Both the position numbers and the translations under genes were made by a program. Below are positions 13,398-33,985 of a stretch of 47,554 nucleotides of DNA, piece after piece (positions within the stretch are counted from its first letter, which is position 1; each line of letters begins with the position of its first letter). A model generated the notes under the pieces. It saw only the letters and a program-made list of their open reading frames with translations. It did no database searches and had not been told where the DNA came from. The stretch is from Candidatus Woesearchaeota archaeon (GTDB taxonomy: Archaea > Nanobdellota > Nanobdellia > Woesearchaeales > JAGVYU01). The stretch covers positions 1 to 47,554 of the forward strand of contig JAGVYU010000013.1 of NCBI GenBank assembly GCA_018303105.1. Reading direction: 5' to 3'.

Positions 13398-14702
13398 CTA
13401 GTAGTACGTTTGCGCACCTGAGCCATCCTTGCGCTCGTCCTCATCGGACTTCAGCTTGTTGAAGCCAATGATAAGGCCGAGGATCACGAGGATCACGACC
13501 AGCACAACAAGGCCAATCTCGAGCGCTCGCTTTAGGCTTCCGGCTGCAACCGCTGATCCCTGCACGACATTTGCCGTCAGAGGAATCTGCTGCACCTCGG
13601 CACCTGAGCTGACTGATACGCTGAATCCATACTGTCCCGGCGCAGTCGTTTCGAGCGCGCTCACATAGACAAATATGGACTTCGTTTCTCCACCGTTCAC
13701 AACGACCACGTTGCTTGGGCTGATGCGTACATTCGCAAAGCTATCCGCAGCTGCGACGCTGATCGTGTATGTTTTTGTGGATCTGCCGTTGTTGGTTATC
13801 GTAATGGGATAGATTGCTCCTCCCGTTCCCGCGGTGATGTCCTGGCTTTGGCTGCCAACGGTGATCACGCTCTGAGGGCCTTGCGCTCCTGGACCCGGTG
13901 AGGGTTCGGTAGCATCGAGCTCGCAGGCATCGCCTTCGATAATCTCGATCAGTGCATCCTCTGTCGCGCGCATGTCTCTGTCATCAAACTCAACATCAAC
14001 ACGCACCGTGTATAGTCCCGGCTCAGCACACTCTGGGATTCTCAAGTAGAGCTCTTCGCTTGTCGTTTCATCGTCGTCCTCTCCCTCAGGTTCGAGCTCA
14101 TCAATATAATCTGAAGCGCTCAAATCCAATTCTGGAATGGAGACTGTAATTTTGACACCATCCTCAAGGCGGTCGCCGTCATTTTCGACGCGTACCGTCG
14201 TCAGTAAAGCACGTCCTGCTTTTACTTTTCCGGAAGGTGAGAAGAGAATGTCGTCAATGCGCACTTCGTGCTCAGGCAATTCAACGCCTAATGCGTACGT
14301 CTGCTCAACCGTTGGGTTGCGCCTGTCTTGAATCCTGACACGCAGGAGGTATTCATCCTCTTCCATGCGGCCCGTCAAGGGAAGCGTGAGCTTTTTGACA
14401 TACGTGCGGTTGGCAACCATATCGAAGACATCTGTGTCGTCGCCAATCACGTCGTCGCGTGCATCACCGGCAATTTCTGCCTCAATTTCGACATTGCTCA
14501 TATCAATATCAGAACTTAGCGTCACCTTCACTTCGAAGGATTCGCCGCGCTCAACAGCCCGAACGAAATTCGTTCCAGACGTGTCAAGCACATCATTATC
14601 GAGTTTCACTTCCTCGATCGTCACTGCAGCGCTTGCGAACGCGCTGTACGCAACCATGCTGAAGAGCACGATTGCCAAAAATCCAATATTTCGCATTTTC
14701 AT
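13398..14702 (-). CDS. secreted, C-terminally anchored NEW3-type surface protein
   Basis: A signal peptide (residues 1-26) is followed by acidic beta domains (VTIEEVKLDNDVLDTSG, EHEVRIDDILFSPSGKV) and a Pro/Gly linker. A NEW3-like domain (about 285-380) has the typical ITNNGRSTKTYTISV and VNGGETKSIFVYVSA. One C-terminal helix (about 393-413) and a short charged tail end the protein. It is strongly acidic and uses more GC-rich codons than neighbours. It is probably an envelope protein acting with the giant protein encoded 53 bases downstream. The start follows a GGGGGTA leader segment, shared with the gene at 14873-18709. Confidence 0.75.
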   Translation of the reverse strand: MKMRNIGFLAIVLFSMVAYSAFASAAVTIEEVKLDNDVLDTSGTNFVRAVERGESFEVKVTLSSDIDMSNVEIEAEIAGDARDDVIGDDTDVFDMVANRTYVKKLTLPLTGRMEEDEYLLRVRIQDRRNPTVEQTYALGVELPEHEVRIDDILFSPSGKVKAGRALLTTVRVENDGDRLEDGVKITVSIPELDLSASDYIDELEPEGEDDDETTSEELYLRIPECAEPGLYTVRVDVEFDDRDMRATEDALIEIIEGDACELDATEPSPGPGAQGPQSVITVGSQSQDITAGTGGAIYPITITNNGRSTKTYTISVAAADSFANVRISPSNVVVVNGGETKSIFVYVSALETTAPGQYGFSVSVSSGAEVQQIPLTANVVQGSAVAAGSLKRALEIGLVVLVVILVILGLIIGFNKLKSDEDERKDGSGAQTYY

Positions 14703-14778
14703 GGTATCTTTACCCCCTATTATACTATAGACGATTTGAATCGAATTCCTCCTCAGCGGCTTGCTGGGAGCGTTCGTG

Positions 14779-14839
14779 ATGTAATCACGCGCTGCTTTAT
14801 AAAACTTTCGCTTATGTTGCTATTCGCGAGTGATTACAT
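14779..14839 (-). promoter_or_regulatory. promoter with flanking 10-bp inverted repeat, upstream of the 13398/9787 operon
   Basis: On the minus strand CGAAAG (14805-14810) and TTTTATAAA (14796-14804) form the BRE/TATA. ATGTAATCAC (14779-14788) and GTGATTACAT (14830-14839) are a perfect 10-bp inverted repeat on either side. Between them, ATGTTGCTATTCGC (plus-strand reading, 14813-14826) matches the promoter at 18782-18823. Transcription should begin near 14774, giving a leader of about 70 bases. Confidence 0.6.
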
Positions 14840-14872
14840 AAATGGTGTTTGTTTCTGCACAAACACTGCGAT

Positions 14873-17800
14873 TCAATCGACGATTATGAGTGGTCTATGT
14901 TTGATGCGGTGGAGTCGCTCATCCGTGATATAGATGCGGACATCATACTCCCCAGGATCCGCCCATTCGGGAAGGTCAAGGACTGTACGCAGGTTCACGC
15001 GCTCGCCATCCTCAAGTTCCATAGGCCCAATTTTTCTGTGAATATCAAGCTCATCAATAACGACGGTAACAACCAAGTTGTTAATGTCAAACTTGTCCGC
15101 ATTGCGGAGCGTTAGTGCGAACTCAATGGCTTCTCCGGCCTGCGCGCGCTCCCCACTTTTTCCCTTTGCGTTGACAAATGCAATCTGATCAATGATGAGG
15201 CCGCGTCGTGACGAGCTGATTGGCTTTGGCTCTGGCGGCTCGACAGGTGGCGTTGCAGGAACGACACATGCTCCACGGTAGCAAAAGCTTCCCGCTCCAA
15301 AGTGGTCTGCACAGTTCACGTTCGAATGCGTGACTGCTCCAAACTCGCGGCCGAATGGAATACAGCGATATTCAACAAGGTATCCGATCTGGGCGTTAGG
15401 CTCGCTGAGATGTGGATCATTTGCCTCAATGCATCGATCTGACCGTGTAATAATCTGGTTCGTGGTGTTGTATGCTCTCCCCTGTGTGAAACTTGCGATG
15501 AGCAAACTCGGGTCGCGATCTGCTACTCTCGTGAAGTTAGCGTTAAGCTGTGTGTTGTCATGATCTACGCATGAAATCGGCTCTATTGCCTTAATCACCA
15601 CGCTTGCGGAATCGTTCTGTCCCTGGCTGTCCTCCACCGTGCATGTAGCCGTGAAGATTCCTGATGCGTAAGTATGCCCTATGATTCCGCCTTGGTCACT
15701 AATGACGACGGGTGAACCATCTCCATAGTCAAGCAGGAACTCTAAAGGAGCCGTTCCACCGGATCCCAAACAAGTGAATGTGACTGTGAGAGGTGCAAAC
15801 CCTTGCGTAGGTGTTGCTGAAAAGTGAATCGTAGGGCTTTCGAGCAGGCACATTGAGCTGCAGCCGTCACCATTTTCGGTGTTGCCATCGTCGCACTGCT
15901 CATTCCCCGCAACTATGCCATCACCACAGATAGCAAACGCGCTCACAGATATGTTCTCGCTGTCTTCTGCAATATCCCCGTCATTGTCCGTGACCTTGCA
16001 TGTTGCCGTAAACTCCCCTGCTTCATAGACATGGTTTTTTTGAATGGGCTGAGTGCTTTGGATGGGAGCTGCGGCATCGCCAAATTCAAGTCTGAATGTA
16101 AGAGGCGCGTCACCGTTGCTTCCTGTGCATTCCAAGCTGACGTTAAGTGGAGCATCTCCTGATGTGGGAGACGCGGTGAGTTCAGCAATTGGCTTATGAT
16201 CTCCTGCTACTGTAATAATGAGTGAGTCGAATGCTGTATCTCCATCAGAATCTTCGACCGTGCATGTGGCATTGTACTCGCCAGCGGCGTCATACGTGTG
16301 TGCTGTTGAGAATGAAAAGTCATTATCAACGGGAGCAGATCCGTCACCAAATGTGATGGTGTACGTTGCAGGAGCATCTCCCGGATTGCCTTCGCATCGG
16401 ATAACGCTTGTTACGGGAGCAAATCCTGATTGCGGCTGTGCTGATATGATTGCGCTCGGGGATAGATCTTCGCTGAGGACAGCCACATCGACAGTTGTTG
16501 CTATGGAATCATCATCTCTATCATTTGCCGCGCACGTTGCAGTGTAATCTCCTACAGCCATATACGTGTGGGATGGATTTTGTAACGAGCTCGTTGCGCC
16601 ATCTCCGAATGTCCAAGCATAGGATATGGGAGCATTGCCGCCTTGCGCTTCACAGGTAAAATTTACTTCAAGCGGAGCGATGCCTTCACTAGGATCTGCT
16701 TCCGCGATGATTCCTAAGAAGTCCTTGTCTTCTTGCTCAAGGCCTTCGACATACGTAATATGCTCTCCCTCAATGGGATGATTGTCATCGTACACGAATG
16801 TGTGACTTGCAACTCCATTTGTTGCGGTGCAATTGTAAAATGTGATCGTTGCTGGATTGCCGCCTTGCCAGGGGAGGATGACGCGCATGCATGACGTTGT
16901 CCATCTGCTTTGATTTTGCGCGGTCACGAGGTCAGCAATGTCTATACGGCCATCATTGTTGAGATCAAACTGCTCAATATCTGATGCGCTCGGATCACCC
17001 ACATGCGTCAATAAATAATCCTGAATTGCATTAACGAGGTTTGGATCCTGTGCTTCTAATATACACGTTTCCGTGTTCTGTAATGTACATTTGTTCAGGA
17101 AAGTGTCAAAAAATACGGGATATTCCTCATCAATATAGTCCTGCGCAGCATATGCCGTGGAGAGAGCAACTCCACTAGGAACTCCTGTGAAATTCACTCC
17201 CACGTCAACATTTGTGTTTACTGTTTTTTCCTGGGCCCCAATATTGATTGTTGCGTTGATAAACTGATACTGTGCTTCTTCATCATATATGTGTTGATCA
17301 AATACGCCAACACGGACACGGTACTCGCTTCGGGGCTGCGTTTCAACGCATGCTCCTTTGCTGCACACGAAGTCATCGCCAAACTGATCTGAGCAGTCAA
17401 CATTCACGTGATTCACGATACCATCGAGCTGGCACCAATACTCCACAAGATCCCCGAGCTCTCCTTGCTCGAATCCACCGTAGTGAGGATCGCTTGTCGT
17501 CTCTATGCACCGGTCTCCCCGGAAAATAGTTTGCGATGGATCAATGTAATAAAGTCCTGTAGTTGTTTTTGCGGTAAGGAGTGAATCCTGAACTTCCGGA
17601 GTGAATGTGAAATCGTCAAACACGGCAAAGCGCGTTGTGTTGTCAGGATCTGCGCAGGATAAGTATGCATTGCTGTACACTCCTTGAATGTAACCAACAT
17701 GTTCGCCATGGAAATGGTGGTTATCATCATAGAAGAACGGGAATGTTGTTCCCGTTGCTGTTTGAGTTGCATTGCATTGAAAAAAATAATTTTCTGGAAT

Positions 17801-18709
17801 GTCATAAAAGGAGTCACCAGGAAGATATGCCTGCTCGCAGTGCGTTGCCCATCCATTTGAGGCGACGTTGCACTCCGATTCAGTATTGGGATTGCATGAC
17901 CGTATGCCCGCGTCAAAGTAAAGTGTGCGTTCTTCGGCTCCAAAACCAAGAGCGGTATGTGTTGCATCATATTCGGCGCTAAGCGTGACGTGCTCAAAGT
18001 TGACTCCGCCGTCAATTGAGTCATTGAGTATTCGTATTTGCGTCTCTCCGGGGCGCGCTATGGCCACGCTTCCGAATAGAAAATCCCATTCTCCTGTCGT
18101 CTCCTGAAGCACTTTGTCATACGTTCCTGTGCGGAGGAAGAGTGTTGAAGAACCTGTATTGGGATAGAGCCCCTCTACAAACGTTACGTGTTTTCCCCAA
18201 ATATAATGATTGTCATCATAGACGAAGTTGAACGTGTTGCCATTCGAGGTTTTTGTCGCCGTACAATAATAGATATAATTATCTGGAATACTAAAAGCCG
18301 GATCACCTGGCAAGAATCCTTGCTGGCAGAGCGTGTGCCATCCGTCCGTATTCAAATCGCACGTTGCTTGCGTGTTAGGATCGCAGGTTTGTATGTTTGT
18401 GTCAAAGAAAAGATAATAATTCTCAGTGGCATAACCGGCCACGCGATACGTTGCGTCGAGCTCGCGTCCCGCAGGAACTTGGTCGAAATTAATGCCCACA
18501 TCCTGTGACGTGTTAACCGTGTGCCAAACGAAATATGGAATGATGTGATTTTTTATGAGGACTGTGGTATTCAAAAAAGAATATTGCTGCGTGGTGTCAA
18601 AGACCTGTTGATCATAGACCCCTAATCTCAAAAAATAGGATGAATCAAGAGCGTACGTTGATGGAATGAGACACAAAATGAACAATACGAGCAATCCTAA
18701 TCTTTTCAT
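14873..18709 (-). CDS. giant secreted repeat protein with PKD, cysteine-rich and dockerin-like elements
   Basis: A cleaved signal peptide (residues 1-20) leads into three copies of an unrecognised ~160-residue domain (about 24-190, 191-345, 461-656), each ending in FxYDDNHxxxGxHxxxxEG or a close variant. The third copy contains an insertion with a dockerin/EF-hand loop (DLNNDGRIDIADL, about 582-594). Four PKD domains (about 668-1042) each carry an extra Cys pair. A CGDGxxxGNEQCDDGN Cys-rich repeat (about 928-958) precedes the fourth. Two copies of the Cys-rich domain shared with the lipoprotein at 215-2011 lie at about 350-455 and 1045-1155. A CARDB-like domain closes the chain. There is no C-terminal helix, so it is released or held by partners. 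Adhesion or glycan binding is inferred. Confidence 0.75.
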   Translation of the reverse strand: MKRLGLLVLFILCLIPSTYALDSSYFLRLGVYDQQVFDTTQQYSFLNTTVLIKNHIIPYFVWHTVNTSQDVGINFDQVPAGRELDATYRVAGYATENYYLFFDTNIQTCDPNTQATCDLNTDGWHTLCQQGFLPGDPAFSIPDNYIYYCTATKTSNGNTFNFVYDDNHYIWGKHVTFVEGLYPNTGSSTLFLRTGTYDKVLQETTGEWDFLFGSVAIARPGETQIRILNDSIDGGVNFEHVTLSAEYDATHTALGFGAEERTLYFDAGIRSCNPNTESECNVASNGWATHCEQAYLPGDSFYDIPENYFFQCNATQTATGTTFPFFYDDNHHFHGEHVGYIQGVYSNAYLSCADPDNTTRFAVFDDFTFTPEVQDSLLTAKTTTGLYYIDPSQTIFRGDRCIETTSDPHYGGFEQGELGDLVEYWCQLDGIVNHVNVDCSDQFGDDFVCSKGACVETQPRSEYRVRVGVFDQHIYDEEAQYQFINATINIGAQEKTVNTNVDVGVNFTGVPSGVALSTAYAAQDYIDEEYPVFFDTFLNKCTLQNTETCILEAQDPNLVNAIQDYLLTHVGDPSASDIEQFDLNNDGRIDIADLVTAQNQSRWTTSCMRVILPWQGGNPATITFYNCTATNGVASHTFVYDDNHPIEGEHITYVEGLEQEDKDFLGIIAEADPSEGIAPLEVNFTCEAQGGNAPISYAWTFGDGATSSLQNPSHTYMAVGDYTATCAANDRDDDSIATTVDVAVLSEDLSPSAIISAQPQSGFAPVTSVIRCEGNPGDAPATYTITFGDGSAPVDNDFSFSTAHTYDAAGEYNATCTVEDSDGDTAFDSLIITVAGDHKPIAELTASPTSGDAPLNVSLECTGSNGDAPLTFRLEFGDAAAPIQSTQPIQKNHVYEAGEFTATCKVTDNDGDIAEDSENISVSAFAICGDGIVAGNEQCDDGNTENGDGCSSMCLLESPTIHFSATPTQGFAPLTVTFTCLGSGGTAPLEFLLDYGDGSPVVISDQGGIIGHTYASGIFTATCTVEDSQGQNDSASVVIKAIEPISCVDHDNTQLNANFTRVADRDPSLLIASFTQGRAYNTTNQIITRSDRCIEANDPHLSEPNAQIGYLVEYRCIPFGREFGAVTHSNVNCADHFGAGSFCYRGACVVPATPPVEPPEPKPISSSRRGLIIDQIAFVNAKGKSGERAQAGEAIEFALTLRNADKFDINNLVVTVVIDELDIHRKIGPMELEDGERVNLRTVLDLPEWADPGEYDVRIYITDERLHRIKHRPLIIVD

Positions 18710-18738
18710 GAAATACCCCCCACATGATGATTTGGAAT

Positions 18739-18823
18739 ATAGGTGATCGAACCTATACGTTCAAATGAAATCGTTCCCGACTATATAAAACTTTCGAGAT
18801 GTTACTATTCGCTAATAGTTACT
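18739..18823 (-). promoter_or_regulatory. promoter and leader hairpin of the giant secreted protein
   Basis: On the minus strand CGAAAG (18791-18796) and TTTTATATA (18782-18790) form the BRE/TATA. The upstream segment, read on the plus strand as ATGTTACTATTCGC (18799-18812) then TTAC, matches the promoter at 14779-14839. ACTATT and AATAGT form an inverted repeat within it. ATAGGT (18739-18744) and ACCTAT (18751-18756) would form a hairpin close to the 5' end of the leader. The whole gap 18710-19020 holds this promoter and the divergent AglB promoter; I see nothing else convincing in it. Confidence 0.6.
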
Positions 18824-18990
18824 AAGTTGGGACAAAAATGGGTATCGTAAGCGAATGATTTTTCTTTTTGTCGACGGTAATTCCATGAAAAAACAAGCTG
18901 CGCGACAATAAGACGGGGTTGAATGACCTTCTTACGCTGCAGAAAAACAACATCGTTTGCCGTTCGCCTGTTTTCATTTTATCAACAAGC

Positions 18991-18999
18991 TTTATAAAT
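18991..18999 (+). promoter_or_regulatory. TATA promoter of the aglB unit
   Basis: TTTATAAAT is centred about 26 bases before the ATG at 19021. This gives a leaderless message and rejects the longer frame that begins at 18919. Confidence 0.65.
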
Positions 19000-19020
19000 C
19001 GCCGCGTTTCCTCTTCCGAC

Positions 19021-21897
19021 ATGGAAAAGAACGATGAGGATGACATTGGGATTGATTTCTCGGGTATAAAGAAGTTCTTCAAAAAGAAAGCGCCTTCGCA
19101 CCCGGATTACAAAGTGGAGCATGAAAGCACGGAGCATCATGAAACGCATCCGCATCACAAACAAACCATTCAAGAAAATCATGAAAAGCTCTCTGCAGAA
19201 GACGATGAAAAGATATCCTTAACGGCAGTCAAGGAGAGCTGGAAGAAATATCAGCGGATCATCATCCCATTAGTATTAGTGGTTCTTGCCATGAGCTTCT
19301 CTGTGTATCTTAGGATGCAGCCGGACTCCCTTCCGATTACAGAGAGCTGGGCGCGCGGCACGATCCATTCTCAGATTCAGTCAGGGATTCGAGACCAGGT
19401 GAATTCGAATTTCCCCAACCTTCCGGATCAGCGTAAAGAGCAGATTGTTCAGGAGCAATTTAATCAGTTTATAAGAGAGAACAATAATGATGTTGAGCAG
19501 CGCGTTCAGGAAGTCGCAGATTATTTCAGGGCGCAGCTGAAAGATGATGACGGCAACACGTATTTAATTGGGATTGATCCGTATTTCTGGTATCGCCATG
19601 CGCAGAACGTTCTGGAGCATGGTCATGCCGGTGATGAACTCAGGATTTCGCCGGTTGACGGCACAGAATATTCCTATGACACGTATATGTATGCGCCCAT
19701 AGGCAGGTTTATGCCGTTAGACATGTTTCATGCCTATTTTATAGCATACACGTATGTCGCCATACATCTCATAAATCCCGGCATGACGCTTGTGGGTTGG
19801 GAGTTCTGGGTTCCTGTTCTGCTGTGCGCGCTGTCCGTGATTCCCGCGTTTTTTATTACGAGAAGAATTGCCGGTAATCTCGGAGGATTTGTTGCAGCTG
19901 TGATCATTGCCATCCAGCCGAGTTATCTTCAAAGGACGATCGGGGGTTTTGCTGACACCGATCCGTACAATGTACTGTTTCCGCTTGTTATCACGTGGGT
20001 GTTTCTGGAAGCGTATGAAACCATCCATCTGAGAAAATCACTCGTTCTTATTGGGATTGCCTCCTTTCTTGTTGGAGTGTACTCCTTTTCCTGGGGTGGC
20101 TGGTGGTATGTGTTCGTGTTCCTCCTCGCGAGCGTTGCACTATACTTCGGATATGAAATTATGCGCGAACTGTTTTTCCAAAAGAAAACGTTCGGAGCGA
20201 TTGTTCAGGACAAGGATCTCCGCCATATTGTGATCGCCAGCGTGCTGTTCTTCCTCCTTTCAGGGGTATTTGTCACACTGTTCACGTCATTCAATACGTT
20301 TGAGGGTTTTATTCGCAGCCCGGTCTCATTCCGTGAAATAAAGGATGTGGGCACAAAGACCGTGTGGCCTAATGTGTTCACGACCGTTGCCGAGCAGAAT
20401 GAGGCTGACTTTAAGCAGATCATTCAGGATATCGGGGGCGGCCTGTTTGACGGCAGTCTCATGTTCGTCATCGCGCTTGTGGGAATTGGTTTAGCGCTCC
20501 TCCATAAGGATTCCAAAGGGAAGCATGACGTCAAATTTGCGTTGCTGTTGCTCATATGGTTTATCGCGACAATTTACGCCAGTTTTAAGGGTATCCGCTG
20601 GACGCTCTTGCTTCTGCCAGCATTTGCAATCGCTGTGGGCATAACGTTTGGGGTTGCATATCGATGGGGGAAGAAGCTATTAACTGCGGAATATCATATT
20701 GAAAAAACATTTGCCGCTGCATCTCTGCTGTTTATTCTCTTCATTTTGTTCTGGTCTTCAGGAATGGCGCAGGAGGCAAACAGGCGCGCAGTGGGCACCG
20801 TGACGGATATGAATGACGCATGGTACAACGCGCTCTCAAAGATCGATCGAGAAGCTTCTCCTGACGCGATTATTAATTCCTGGTGGGATTTTGGGCACTG
20901 GTTCAAGGCGATTGGGAATAGAAAAGTCACGTTCGATGGAACGTCGCAGGGCGAACCCATGGCGCATTGGATGGGAAATGTCCTGTTGACAAGTGATGAA
21001 AAAACTGCCGTCGGGTTGTTGCGCATGATGGATTGTGGAAGTAACAAGGCATTTGACGCGCTTGACCAGGTCATGCAAAAGCCGTATCATTCCGTTAAAA
21101 CGCTTTATGAAATTGTCGTGTTGAACAGGGATGATGCAAAAAAAGTGTTGATTGGTCATGGATTGACCGCTGAGCAGGCTGAATCCGTGCTTGAGTATTC
21201 GCACTGTGACCCTCCCGAGGATTATTTCATTACAAGCGAGGATATGATTGGGAAGGCGGGGGTATGGGGGCATTTCGGGGCGTGGGATTTTGATAAAGCG
21301 ACGCAATTTAACACGCTGAAAAACACGCCGTCAAAGGAAGAATCCCTAGCGTATCTTGAGACTGAGTTTAATATGACTCCAGAAGAGGCAGAGTCACGTT
21401 ACGCGGAGATTTCTGCACTAGGGGTAGGGAGAGACGCAAACGACTGGATTGCGCCTTGGCCCGGGTATGCGAATGACATCTCATCGTGCAGCCGCGTGGA
21501 TAATGCAACGTTCGAATGCACGGTGGTTTCCGTGAATGTACTAGTGAATACGCAGACTAATGAAGCTTGGGTGGAAACGCCTGATAAAGTACTTCATCCC
21601 AACGCGCTCGTGTATGTCAAGGGAGAGGATATCGCTGTGAAATCATATCAGAATAACACGATAGGAGTGAGCCTTATCGTGATTCCGAATGGCGAAGGAT
21701 TGCAGTATGTTGTTGCCTCTCCCGAGCAGGCCGCAGGCATGTTTACAAGGCTCTATTATTTGCGCGGTCACGGGCTGCGCTATTTTAAGCTGTTCACGGA
21801 GCAGGTAAGCCCCTTTGGTAATCATATTTATATTTGGAAAGTGGATTGGAAGGGAACAGAGAAAAACATGGCGTTTAACTCCTCGGTGCTCGCATGA
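19021..21897 (+). CDS. aglB: AglB/STT3 dolichyl-phosphooligosaccharide-protein glycotransferase
   Basis: A 958-residue oligosaccharyltransferase that moves lipid-linked glycan onto Asn of N-x-S/T sites outside the membrane. A charged, His-rich cytoplasmic extension (residues 1-78) precedes the first helix (about 80-98). The catalytic outer loop carries GIDPYFWYRHA near residue 184, and ADTDPYN lies near residue 313. About a dozen helices follow, then the signature SWWDFGHW (621-625), a variant of WWDYG, and a soluble C-terminal domain. The N-terminal extension is unusually long. The gene leads a tight cluster: its stop overlaps the GT2 start by four bases (ATGA). Confidence 0.95.
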   Translation: MEKNDEDDIGIDFSGIKKFFKKKAPSHPDYKVEHESTEHHETHPHHKQTIQENHEKLSAEDDEKISLTAVKESWKKYQRIIIPLVLVVLAMSFSVYLRMQPDSLPITESWARGTIHSQIQSGIRDQVNSNFPNLPDQRKEQIVQEQFNQFIRENNNDVEQRVQEVADYFRAQLKDDDGNTYLIGIDPYFWYRHAQNVLEHGHAGDELRISPVDGTEYSYDTYMYAPIGRFMPLDMFHAYFIAYTYVAIHLINPGMTLVGWEFWVPVLLCALSVIPAFFITRRIAGNLGGFVAAVIIAIQPSYLQRTIGGFADTDPYNVLFPLVITWVFLEAYETIHLRKSLVLIGIASFLVGVYSFSWGGWWYVFVFLLASVALYFGYEIMRELFFQKKTFGAIVQDKDLRHIVIASVLFFLLSGVFVTLFTSFNTFEGFIRSPVSFREIKDVGTKTVWPNVFTTVAEQNEADFKQIIQDIGGGLFDGSLMFVIALVGIGLALLHKDSKGKHDVKFALLLLIWFIATIYASFKGIRWTLLLLPAFAIAVGITFGVAYRWGKKLLTAEYHIEKTFAAASLLFILFILFWSSGMAQEANRRAVGTVTDMNDAWYNALSKIDREASPDAIINSWWDFGHWFKAIGNRKVTFDGTSQGEPMAHWMGNVLLTSDEKTAVGLLRMMDCGSNKAFDALDQVMQKPYHSVKTLYEIVVLNRDDAKKVLIGHGLTAEQAESVLEYSHCDPPEDYFITSEDMIGKAGVWGHFGAWDFDKATQFNTLKNTPSKEESLAYLETEFNMTPEEAESRYAEISALGVGRDANDWIAPWPGYANDISSCSRVDNATFECTVVSVNVLVNTQTNEAWVETPDKVLHPNALVYVKGEDIAVKSYQNNTIGVSLIVIPNGEGLQYVVASPEQAAGMFTRLYYLRGHGLRYFKLFTEQVSPFGNHIYIWKVDWKGTEKNMAFNSSVLA

Positions 21898-22550
21898 AAA
21901 AACTGTTCATTATTATTCCCGGATTGAACGAGCAAAAGCATATTGCGTCTGTCATCAAAGGAGCGCAGCAATACTCTGAGCACGTTGTTGTTGTAGATGA
22001 TGGGTCTACAGACGCAATGGCGAAAATCGCTATGGAAAGCGGCGCTACGGTGCTGCATCATGTCATTAACTTGGGAAAGGGCGCCGCGCTGAAAACGGGC
22101 TGTGAATACGCGCTTGCGCAAGGCGCTGATCAGATTGTTTTTATTGATAGCGACGGCCAGCATGATACACGAGATATTCCAAAGTTTATCGAGGCATTGA
22201 AAGGCCATGATATTGTGTTTGGGTATCGCACGTTCAATCGCGATATGCCGCTCGTGTTCAGGATTGGAAATATTTTAATCAATCATACGGCACGCCTCCT
22301 GTTCGGTATTCGTCTGCGGGATATCCTGTGCGGATACCGCGCGTTTAATGCCGAAGTATATGAAAAGATTGAATGGACCGTTTCCGGATACAGCGTGGAG
22401 TCTGAGATCGTAGCGAATGTGGGTGCGCACCATCTCACCTATGCTGAGGTATCCACAAAAACGATTTATGATGACAAGTACAAGGGAACAACGGTTGTTG
22501 ATGGTATTAAAATTGTGTTGAATATGCTCGCGTGGAGGTTGAGAGGATGA
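21894..22550 (+). CDS. GT2 glycosyltransferase, DPM1-like
   Basis: A GT-A enzyme of 218 residues. The N-terminal nucleotide-binding strand (FIIIPGLNEQKHIASVI), VVDDGSTD and the metal-binding DSDGQHD motif are all present, as is the DILCGYRAFN segment typical of dolichyl-phosphate mannose/glucose synthases. There is no C-terminal membrane domain, so it probably acts at the membrane surface with a partner; the DUF2304 protein encoded next is the likely candidate. It is translationally coupled to aglB and to the following gene by ATGA overlaps. Confidence 0.88.
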   Translation: MKKLFIIIPGLNEQKHIASVIKGAQQYSEHVVVVDDGSTDAMAKIAMESGATVLHHVINLGKGAALKTGCEYALAQGADQIVFIDSDGQHDTRDIPKFIEALKGHDIVFGYRTFNRDMPLVFRIGNILINHTARLLFGIRLRDILCGYRAFNAEVYEKIEWTVSGYSVESEIVANVGAHHLTYAEVSTKTIYDDKYKGTTVVDGIKIVLNMLAWRLRG

Positions 22551-31186: not shown

Positions 31187-31441
31187 ATGACACTTGCCAG
31201 ACTAAAGTTGAACACGTACACAAATAAAGTGTTGAATGTTGTGAAAGCTAAATTTGACTTGAAGGATAAATCTGCTGCTTTGAACAGATTTGTTGATGAG
31301 TATGGACAGGAAGTTGTAGAAAAAGAAGCAAATGACGCCTACATAAAGAAAATTCTTGAAGTTGAAGAGAAACACATTCAAAAATATGGAAAGCGAAAAA
31401 TGTCCCTGAAAGAACTTGATGAGCTCTGCGGTGTTGACTAA
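31187..31441 (+). CDS. DUF2683-like antitoxin
   Basis: An 84-residue protein. MTLARLKLNTYTNKVLNVVK followed by a helix (FDLKDKSAALNRFVDEYGQEV) looks like a ribbon-helix-helix DNA-binding start. A long charged helical tail would wrap the toxin. The pattern is that of archaeal DUF2683 antitoxins. It stands directly before the toxin: stop TAA and toxin ATG are adjacent. The pair lies immediately upstream of the diversity-generating retroelement. Confidence 0.75.
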   Translation: MTLARLKLNTYTNKVLNVVKAKFDLKDKSAALNRFVDEYGQEVVEKEANDAYIKKILEVEEKHIQKYGKRKMSLKELDELCGVD

Positions 31442-31714
31442 ATGTTCTCCTTTGACATGAGTGACGAGCTTAAGATCAAGATTCGTAAATTAGTGCATAA
31501 AGACCATAAAAAAGTTGAAATTATAAATAAAAAGATTAAGGAGATCATTCAAAATGACTCAATAAGTATCGATCGCTATAAGAATCTGCGGTATGACTTA
31601 AAACAGTACAAAAGAGTACACATTGACAGGCACTTTGTGCTGACATTTAAGGTGGATAAGCAAAATGAGCATATTCTTTTCATTGATTTTGATCATCATG
31701 ACAGGGTCTATTAA
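31442..31714 (+). CDS. RelE/ParE-superfamily toxin
   Basis: A 90-residue basic protein with the RelE layout: two N-terminal helices (MSDELKIKIRKLVHKDHKKVEIINKK), then strands YKNLRYDLKQYKRVHIDRHFVLTFKV and HILFIDFDHHDRVY. The DHHDRVY ending is typical of archaeal members. RelE toxins cut mRNA on the ribosome; some relatives poison gyrase instead. It starts directly after the antitoxin stop codon, so production is coupled. Confidence 0.8.
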   Translation: MFSFDMSDELKIKIRKLVHKDHKKVEIINKKIKEIIQNDSISIDRYKNLRYDLKQYKRVHIDRHFVLTFKVDKQNEHILFIDFDHHDRVY

Positions 31715-31742: not shown

Positions 31743-31792
31743 TTTATATATAAGTTGTTACTAACTAGTGATTAATGAATGATTTTGGAGGG
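31743..31792 (+). promoter_or_regulatory. promoter and Shine-Dalgarno site of the DGR target gene
   Basis: TTTATATATA (31743-31752) predicts a start near 31773. GGAGGG (31787-31792) is seven bases before the ATG at 31800. The element CATTTATATA also opens the toxin-antitoxin promoter. Confidence 0.6.
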
Positions 31793-31799
31793 ATGTGGT

Positions 31800-32621
31800 A
31801 TGGTTTTGGCTCAGAATGTTGACACGAAAGTTCCGGGGATTGTGGTTCCTGTGTATGTGGAGGGTAAGGAGTTTTATGGTAATACTGTCGCGGATGCGTT
31901 GAAATCTGTTGAGTCTGGTTTTGGGGCGGCGTTTATGCCGCAGCTTGTGGATGCGAGGATTGCTGCTTCTGCTGAGAGTCGGCTTTGGCAGGTGTGGTGG
32001 ACGGCTCCGAGTGTTCAAGCGACGGGAAGAAATAAGGCAGGAAAGCCTGTTGTCGTGTATGCGCATGTTCCTAATTATTTCTCACGTTCAGAAAACATTA
32101 CTCAAGCGGTTAAGAATGGTCTCGTGAATGGGGCGGGAAGGCTTCCTCAGGAAGAATTTCAGCGATTGCTTGACTTAGAAGATAACGCTAATGTGTTTGT
32201 TGTTGAGTATGCTGACCTTCAAAGCTCAGATTCTGGTCTGATTGCTGTGGAGAATGCGTTGCAGCATCCGCAAGTAATTCCTTTCTTAGGGGGGCAAGAA
32301 CGCGCAGAAGCGTACTTGGCAGCGTATGAACGCATGATTGGAAAACACATCAGAGTCTATCACCGAAATGACTTAGGTGATGAACCAGTAGCTCGTCTGT
32401 TGTTCCTTGGCGGCCTCGCCAACCTTAGCGGCCTCGATGGCAGCGACGACCTCAACAGCAGTGCGCGTTTCCTCGGGGTACGTGGTCGTATCGCCGCCGC
32501 AGGCGGCGCGTCGCAAAAAACAGGCCCTAGCCTTGATGCAGTCCTCAAAGCCACTGGAGACTTTGTCGCTCACGTGAACCAGGACGAAATGAGGCGCAGA
32601 GTCTCTGCCCTATATCAATAG
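31800..32621 (+). CDS. DGR target (variable) protein
   Basis: The 273-residue protein carries the variable repeat at residues 199-227. I cannot assign its first ~195 residues (for example KPVVVYAHVPNYFSRSENI and EEFQRLLDLEDNANVFVVEY) to a known family. The VR region (RLLFLG, then G/S/D/L/N positions, then ARFLGVRGR) has the small-residue, aromatic-poor look of a C-type-lectin-fold display loop. Unlike classical DGR targets it continues for about 45 residues after the VR. There is no signal peptide or membrane helix, so it is cytoplasmic or exported by an unknown route. The ATG at 31800 follows a good Shine-Dalgarno site; ATG 31779 is the longer alternative. Confidence 0.85.
   Translation: MVLAQNVDTKVPGIVVPVYVEGKEFYGNTVADALKSVESGFGAAFMPQLVDARIAASAESRLWQVWWTAPSVQATGRNKAGKPVVVYAHVPNYFSRSENITQAVKNGLVNGAGRLPQEEFQRLLDLEDNANVFVVEYADLQSSDSGLIAVENALQHPQVIPFLGGQERAEAYLAAYERMIGKHIRVYHRNDLGDEPVARLLFLGGLANLSGLDGSDDLNSSARFLGVRGRIAAAGGASQKTGPSLDAVLKATGDFVAHVNQDEMRRRVSALYQ
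32394..32480 (+). repeat. DGR variable repeat (VR)
   Basis: This 87-base segment aligns without gaps to the template repeat at 32785-32871. Sixteen positions differ and all are A in the template (12 read G, 2 read C, 2 read T). The ends are A-free and identical: 18 bases at the 5' side, and GCGCGTTTCCTCGG near the 3' side, in the place of the IMH element where mutagenic homing starts. Ten of twelve template Asn codons are recoded to Gly, Leu, Asp or Ser. Confidence 0.96.
32492..32508 (+). repeat. hairpin downstream of the VR
   Basis: CGCCGCC (32492-32498) and GGCGGCG (32502-32508) form a perfect 7-bp stem with a 3-base loop, 12 bases after the VR. DNA hairpins just after the VR are needed for efficient homing in the Bordetella phage DGR, so this is a likely target-recognition structure. 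It lies inside the coding sequence. Confidence 0.75.
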
Positions 32622-32784
32622 ATTTTTATATTCTTATTTTTCTTATTTTATTGTCTTGGTCGCCGCGCCAGCGGCTTCTGGACTACATGCTCTTTTGCTA
32701 CGGCGGCAAACACCGTCATAAAATACAGCCACGACACATCATGTGAAGTGGCAGTGCAACAGACGGCAAGAGAGCTATAGGAAA
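32622..32784 (+). promoter_or_regulatory. spacer before the TR: T-rich terminator/TATA and small hairpin
   Basis: Directly after the target stop is TTTTTATATT (32623-32632) in a T-rich stretch. It could end the target message and also be the TATA box of the TR/RT transcript, which would start near 32653. GCCGC (32662-32666) and GCGGC (32671-32675) form a small hairpin. The spacer is too short for an Avd accessory gene and none is visible. Confidence 0.4.
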
Positions 32785-32871
32785 CGTCTGTTGTTCCTTG
32801 GCAACAACGCCAACAATAGCAACCTCAATGGCAACAACAACCTCAACAACAATGCGCGTTTCCTCGGAATA
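32785..32871 (+). repeat. DGR template repeat (TR)
   Basis: The TR is rich in AAC/AAT codons in the frame of the VR, the classic design in which A mutagenesis of Asn codons reaches many residues without making stop codons. It holds 28 adenines, 16 of which differ in the VR. Three more adenines just upstream (32782-32784) also align to non-A bases, so the true 5' border may be three bases earlier. Homology stops at 32872. The TR ends 24 bases before the RT start codon. Confidence 0.96.
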
Positions 32872-32895: not shown

Positions 32896-33985
32896 ATGAA
32901 AACATACAGTAACCTCTGGCAAGAACTTTGCAGCTACGACAATCTCAAGCTCGCATACAAAAAAGCGAGAAAGCACAAAACCCAGAAGAAATATGTCATT
33001 GAATTTGAGAAAAATCTCAAAACAAATCTTCTAACGCTCCAGAGCGAGCTTCTTCTCCATGCGTACACGCCAAAACCGTTAGTGACATTCATCATCCAAG
33101 ATCCAAAAACAAGAACAATCAGCAAAGCAGACTTTCGCGACCGAGTAATCCATCATGCCCTCTGCAACATCATTGAGCCCATTTTTGAAGAAAGCTTCAT
33201 CTACGACTCCTATGCAAACAGAATTGGTAAGGGAACACTCAAAGCCATTGAGCGCTTTGACACCTTCAAGAGAAAAGTAAGCAGGAACAATACACGGCCA
33301 TGTTTTATTTTAAAAGCCGACATCAAAAAGTATTTTGAAACGGTTGATCATGTAACCCTTTTTTCAATTATCGGAAGACGCATCAAAGATGAAAAAGTAC
33401 TATGGCTTATCAGACGCATTATAGAATCAGCGGGGGGGGGTCCATCGTGGCATGCCGCTCGGCAACCTCACCTCACAATTCTTCGCCAACGTCTACCTCA
33501 ACGAGCTTGACCAGTTCGTAAAACACGAACTAAGAGCAAAATACTACATTCGATACGTCGATGATTTTGTCATCCTTCACACTTCCAAGCAACAGCTTGA
33601 AACTTGGAAACAGGAGATTGAGAAGTTCCTCAAGATACAACTCCTGCTACACCTTCACCCAGATAAAGCAAAAATAGTTCGTTTAGGATCCTCAATCACT
33701 TTTCTGGGATTAAGGATTTTCTACAACCATAAACTTCTCAAAAAATCAAACATGCAAAAAATGAGGAGAAAAATACGAGAACTCACAGAAGAAGATCAGC
33801 AAGGAACTGCTTCCTATGATATCCTGTATGATTATTTAGAAGGATGGGTTGCGTACGCAAAGAATGCAAACACATACCGATTACGAAAGCGAGTCACAGA
33901 GCAGATAAGGAAGGACTACCCGGAAGAATTTTCATCAAAAGAAATTGGTAGATTGGAAAAAGAGAGTGTAGAAAGAGAACAATAA
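32896..33985 (+). CDS. DGR reverse transcriptase, interrupted by a +1 frameshift in a G9 run
   Basis: Read through the frameshift this is a 362-residue RT that copies the TR RNA into mutated cDNA. The palm Asp142 (LKADIKKYF) and Y220-V-D-D223 form the active site. PLGNLTSQ (about 187-194) has the SQ pair that marks DGR enzymes. A thumb region (about 255-362) ends the protein; no maturase, endonuclease or RNase H domain follows. The first frame stops at 33510 and the second is open from before 33452. Removing one of nine G (33432-33440) joins them as SAGGVHRGMPLG. ATG 32896 is favoured by the family start; the upstream frame is also open through the TR from GTG 32743. Confidence 0.9.
33432..33440 (+). 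repeat. poly-G tract (G9) at the RT frameshift
   Basis: Nine consecutive G are at the exact point where the two RT frames meet. Eight would restore the enzyme. Confidence 0.9.

Follow-up and report, generated by a model that had tools for sequence, protein, structure and literature searches.

What does a DGR diversify when its target could not be assigned to a family, carries the VR inside the protein and starts with no export signal, and why can the reverse transcriptase (RT) beside it not be read in one frame? The locus lies in a 47,554-nucleotide contig (JAGVYU010000013.1; the window) of a Candidatus Woesearchaeota archaeon, and its parts are collected in Table 1. The target ORF is real, with GGAGGG preceding its ATG, and an alternative in-frame ATG at 31779 would lengthen the protein by seven residues. 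The protein matched no family in Pfam, NCBIfam or PHROGs, and a PADLOC match to HamB was rejected as weak (17 bits, E=2e-4). A phmmer search of the PDB returned one convincing match, to AvpA (5ioo_A, E=1e-73), which pairs residues 21-273 with residues 7-255, and profile searches from family alignments reached AvpA at 1.2e-87 and 7.9e-99 and matched no other chain. The sequence-only reading had placed the target in a family that it could not assign; the match extends from end to end, and by sequence the protein is a full-length AvpA homologue and a new member of a known family. The three motifs of distant AvpA relatives (GXXVVVYAH, HPXXXPFXG and RFXGV; PMC5006420) are all present, as GKPVVVYAH, HPQVIPFLG and RFLGV. 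Searching viral and genome contigs for related loci with the target alone gave nothing; the genome search did yield relatives.

AvpA is a nanoarchaeal DGR variable protein of solved crystal structure (PDB 5IOO; Handa et al. 2016, PMC5006420). Its residues 8-209, among them the VR, make a single C-type-lectin domain with a potential binding site built from 12 variable residues, and the VR is internal and followed by a flexible tail of 46 residues that is invisible in the crystal (PMC5006420). The target shares this layout over its full length: its VR is internal, as the sequence-only reading had recognized, ends the putative C-type-lectin fold, and is followed by 47 residues (estimated earlier at about 45), and its variable residues are of similar number (12-13 in the two proteins) and nearly all encoded by AAY codons. 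The target differs from AvpA in a VR loop one residue longer and an N-terminus about 14 residues longer, and the RT gene of the present cassette is frameshifted. The first 195 residues had been taken for a separate globular domain, but the equivalent part of AvpA builds one C-type-lectin fold together with the VR (PMC5006420). From this solved homologue we infer the same fold for the target, with VR side chains that would be exposed rather than buried; AlphaFold, given a shallow alignment of four sequences, returned a pLDDT of 35.6. No homology to a known non-DGR enzyme appeared. The earlier description, of a DGR target whose VR is internal and which has no export signal, thus stands, whereas its separation from C-type-lectin targets is overturned by the homology to AvpA, and the target's oddities (the unassignable sequence, the internal VR and the tail) are already published features of the AvpA family.

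The cassette around the target bears the marks of past activity. VR and TR differ at 14 of 83 positions, and all 14 fall at TR adenines, of which there are 25 (hypergeometric 1.7e-9); a VR so changed from its TR indicates that the system has been active. Thirteen target residues are variable, all within 205-221, and 12 of them derive from AAC or AAT codons in the TR. RT-16 RNA was found in 11 of 14 related loci, both with and without the RT tract described below. The hairpin just 3' of the VR is no more stable than those of shuffled DNA (z -1.35), and no small neighbour gene among those scanned matched the Avd family. Directly upstream of the target (31187-31714) are two small adjoining genes, one DUF2683-type and antitoxin-like, the other ParE/RelE-type and toxin-like, both matching below curated cut-offs.

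Table 1. Parts of the DGR cassette in the window, and of the genome's second DGR (contig 22).
Feature	Position	Strand	Remark
Target ORF, AvpA-family DGR target, 273 aa	31800..32621	+	C-type-lectin fold by homology
VR, residues 199-226	32394..32476	+	83-nt copy of TR
C-terminal tail after VR, 47 residues	32477..32618	+	equivalent of the disordered 46-residue AvpA extension
Hairpin, 7-bp stem, just 3' of VR	32492..32508	+	within tail coding sequence; AvpA-like position
RT-16 RNA (Rfam RF03019)	32654..32783	+	structured RNA directly 5' of TR, E=4e-9
TR	32785..32867	+	83-nt copy paired with VR
DGR RT, first part	32896..33440	+	frame stays open, out of phase, up to 33510; inferred start codon
G9 tract, frameshift site	33432..33440	+	RT in frame if 8 or 11 G
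DGR RT, second part (MPLGNLTSQ ... YVDD ...), other frame	33452..33985	+	Pfam RVT_1
Second DGR, contig 22 (L034)	14639-16153	-	
Second DGR, contig 22 (L034)	18161-19057 and 21161-22030	+	
Own TR of second DGR, contig 22	22349-22406		

It is the RT frameshift that is the unusual part of the locus. The RT adjoins the TR and has the GNLTSQ and YVDD motifs, and in this assembly it has no uninterrupted frame: two frames meet at a run of nine G, and the first codon of PLGNLTSQ follows 14 nt later. The RT of a related locus (L048) is broken at the same place, also at nine G. No G run is present there in other RTs, the second one of this genome among them.

The distribution of such tracts was followed in two ways. 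When 84,980 genomes were scanned for a run of at least G7 lying 2-32 nt ahead of the GNLTSQ motif, 34 stretches were found, all from DPANN-type archaea or CPR bacteria; the archaeal sources are Woese-, Pace- or Nanoarchaeota, and three records say only 'archaeon'. The same pattern had no match in IMG/VR, and at least 120 viral RTs with the motif have no G run above five there, the 98 that could be tested all being in frame. An order-wide survey of 353 genomes used an intact RT as query, so as not to condition on the tract, and found a repeat in the 60-nt slot before the motif in 12 of about 111 RTs with the motif: ten poly-G tracts of 9 to 27 bases, and (CT)11 and (CT)9 in two species of one genus. 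One further RT has G7 in the slot. With repeats defined as G/C runs of eight or more, or microsatellites, 12 of the 23 repeats in 549 kb of RT-centred DNA fall in this slot, which makes up 1.2% of the bases (binomial about 1e-17, a figure that applies within RT neighbourhoods). G9 or longer runs occur genome-wide in the order at about 0.5 per Mb (corrected for the last base of the pattern), against ten in 6.7 kb of slots. A CT-repeat pattern, with a spacer allowed that was shorter than that of one of the two CT cases, found none in 378 genomes of the class and in viral contigs, and the two CT cases were apparently not among the genomes drawn. Because (CT)n as well as G(n) occupies one site, selection would appear to act on a slippable repeat and not on a particular base, and since the same site is hit in dozens of genomes, sequencing error does not explain the repeat.

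The reading phases point in the same direction. The non-redundant set comprises 135 RTs, 39 with a repeat, a share enriched by the tract scan. Of the 38 repeat-bearing RTs that could be judged, 8 keep the frame, while 15 are shifted by one and 15 by two, as expected of a uniform distribution (p=0.28), whereas the frame is intact in all 92 judged RTs without a repeat (Fisher 2e-22). Comparison of sister RTs gives a dN/dS of about 0.04-0.15 downstream of the break, similar to the upstream half, and this holds also between out-of-frame members; by this measure both halves are under purifying selection, and low values on both sides of the break argue that the RT is not a dead gene. Parsimony requires 14 changes of state for the repeat on the RT tree, three of them forced by well-supported branches, against 34 with shuffled labels; the tracts are clustered on the tree, and the cases are not all independent. 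In one well-supported clade of 12 RTs, every member has the tract and its length and phase vary between members, a comparison made with one consensus sequence per species; exact lengths may contain errors.

We therefore have good reason to think that the locus is, quite probably, a cellular DGR of a small DPANN-type archaeon, with an AvpA-type lectin target and an RT that is phase-variable through slippage at G9. The constant segment of about 200 residues and the VR would fold as one domain with the 13 variable residues on a binding face, and the RT would copy the TR, which lies behind the RT-16 RNA, into the VR with adenine-specific errors. The G9 tract sits in a stretch of the RT before GNLTSQ that tolerates changes in length, and DNA slippage at the repeat could shift the RT frame at a rate presumably far above that of point mutation. 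RT-on cells would diversify the lectin and RT-off cells would keep their current VR, and a lineage could fix a favourable variant through loss of the frame, which it might recover later; the genome of the window would be one caught in the off state. The broader proposition, that DPANN archaea and CPR bacteria toggle hypermutation by repeat slippage in the RT gene (at poly-G ahead of the GNLTSQ motif, and at poly-C, CT or AG repeats in other places) as a second, stochastic layer of control, is likely.

Three other accounts of the broken RT are less attractive. G runs can be slippery, and the tract could be a recoding signal at which transcriptional slippage or ribosomal frameshifting yields a small fixed fraction of full-length RT, and hence a low RT level. 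Selection on both halves would fit recoding, and a random phase would be tolerable if slippage were bidirectional, but recoding sites usually keep one fixed offset, and here all three phases occur, including in-frame genes with long tracts; moreover, repeats of the classical DNA-slippage kind, (CT)n and (AG)n, are found in RT genes, whether at this site or at others, and we regard recoding as unlikely. That the RT is a pseudogene, its homopolymer a neutral expansion or a sequencing error, would suit the frameshift seen here. This is very improbable, however, given that the slot is unbroken in all 92 judged RTs without a repeat, that dN/dS stays low downstream of the break, that different projects produced dozens of genomes affected in this same slot, where CT repeats occur as well, and that the rest of the cassette (RT-16, TR, VR and target) is intact. 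Least credible of the three is an enzyme in two pieces, the second translated separately from the ATG at 33452, with the chains assembling into one RT. An ATG does open the second ORF just before PLGNLTSQ, and GMPLGN is kept in most relatives, yet unsplit RTs have the methionine as well, the tract-free and in-frame RTs are single ORFs, and a split would not call for a repeat or maintain one.

Where the lectin acts is a separate matter. The absence of an export signal, claimed from the sequence at the outset, is borne out: the best 19-residue hydropathy mean of the target is 1.03, with no signal peptide or transmembrane helix, and in 34 of 35 family members no window reaches 1.6, the exception having its stretch in the VR region and not at the N-terminus. 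Archaeal DGR targets are usually devoid of recognizable membrane or other domains, and whether they truly lack membrane binding was left undecided (Roux et al. 2021, PMC8144416). We give about even chances to the target being exported or displayed by an unrecognized route, for instance through its C-terminal tail or a partner, and binding host or neighbour cells instead of working in the cytoplasm. Surface proteins make up most of the other cellular DGR targets (PMC8144416), and conserved types of C-terminal tail recur among AvpA-like proteins; against export, none of the 35 family members has a signal peptide or an N-terminal transmembrane helix, and several have three to six cysteines.

The proposed phase variation of the RT has close parallels in bacteria. 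Intragenic poly-G or poly-C tracts switch genes at the simple-sequence-repeat contingency loci of Campylobacter, Neisseria and Helicobacter, and the RT tracts resemble these in being intragenic poly-G or dinucleotide repeats, in showing all three phases across lineages, and in lying in a gene under selection. They differ in that the gene to be switched encodes a mutator RT instead of a surface structure or methylase, in having archaeal or CPR bacterial hosts, and in that length variation is known here only between genomes. The DGR of Bordetella phage (Mtd, RT, Avd, TR/VR) likewise has an RT, adenine-specific transfer from TR to VR and a C-type-lectin target, but it is phage-borne, its VR is at the extreme C-terminus of an FGE-type lectin, it has an Avd, which was not found among the small neighbour genes scanned here, and its RT is not known as phase-variable. 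The open-licence literature yielded no report of a DGR with phase variation, a frameshift, a homopolymer or slipped-strand events, and the RT repeat tract as a possible switch is apparently new. To our knowledge little is known of DGR regulation, on which RT phase variation would bear; it would also be the first case known to us in which the hypermutation engine, and not its product, is phase-variable, would explain how a cell can retain a useful variant although it possesses a device for overwriting it, and would demonstrate repeat-based phase variation in DPANN archaea. With about 12% of the order's RTs bearing a repeat, surveys that require an intact RT frame miss or discard some DGRs.

The genome (1.3 Mb in 72 contigs) has further DGR parts. 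The second DGR, on contig 22, has an intact RT that is 57% identical to that of the window, and at least two AvpA-like targets whose VRs show adenine-specific changes. This intact RT might serve the TR of the window in trans, in which case 'off' may not mean off. A G8 run lies just before the start of the second RT. On contig 47 (L036, 2417-3643) a 408-residue protein has a core remotely similar to AvpA (E=0.003 to 5IOO, with an RFVGVRG motif) joined to a C-terminal part of about 160 residues of no known family, and no TR matching its VR-like stretch was found. Among the AvpA-like targets, C-terminal tails of at least two types recur on otherwise divergent cores, one helical and ending in YK (L037, L042, L043, L053, L098 and L108), the other with a GrlYvP-type stretch (L045, L057, L067 and L126), and such tails might be a docking or sorting module.

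Several of the surveyed repeats that fall outside the slot are also inside RT genes (G9 at residues ~310-317, C8-C14 at residues ~350-365, and C10 at the start). In L140 an (AG)10 repeat (1176-1195) splits the DGR RT at about residue 142 and is a possible second site of phase variation. Two loci from genomes of different families (L102 and L103) have an identical C10 tract with identical flanks at the RT start, the result of either recent transfer or a binning error. Runs of G8-G11 flanked by TGACG or CGA lie upstream of the TR/RT in the DGRs of several genomes (L168, 2018-2026; L169, 2280-2287; and L213), and are possibly a transcriptional counterpart of the RT tract. At the DNA level, CG(A/T) follows the RT G tract in most of 37 cases, whatever the codon frame. 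The same motif accompanies, on the other strand, some of the C tracts found at other places in RT genes, whereas ordinary G9 runs are mostly without this flank; the recurrent G(n)CG(A/T) context may be a dedicated slippage signal, a suggestion that we hold far less likely than phase variation of the RT itself.
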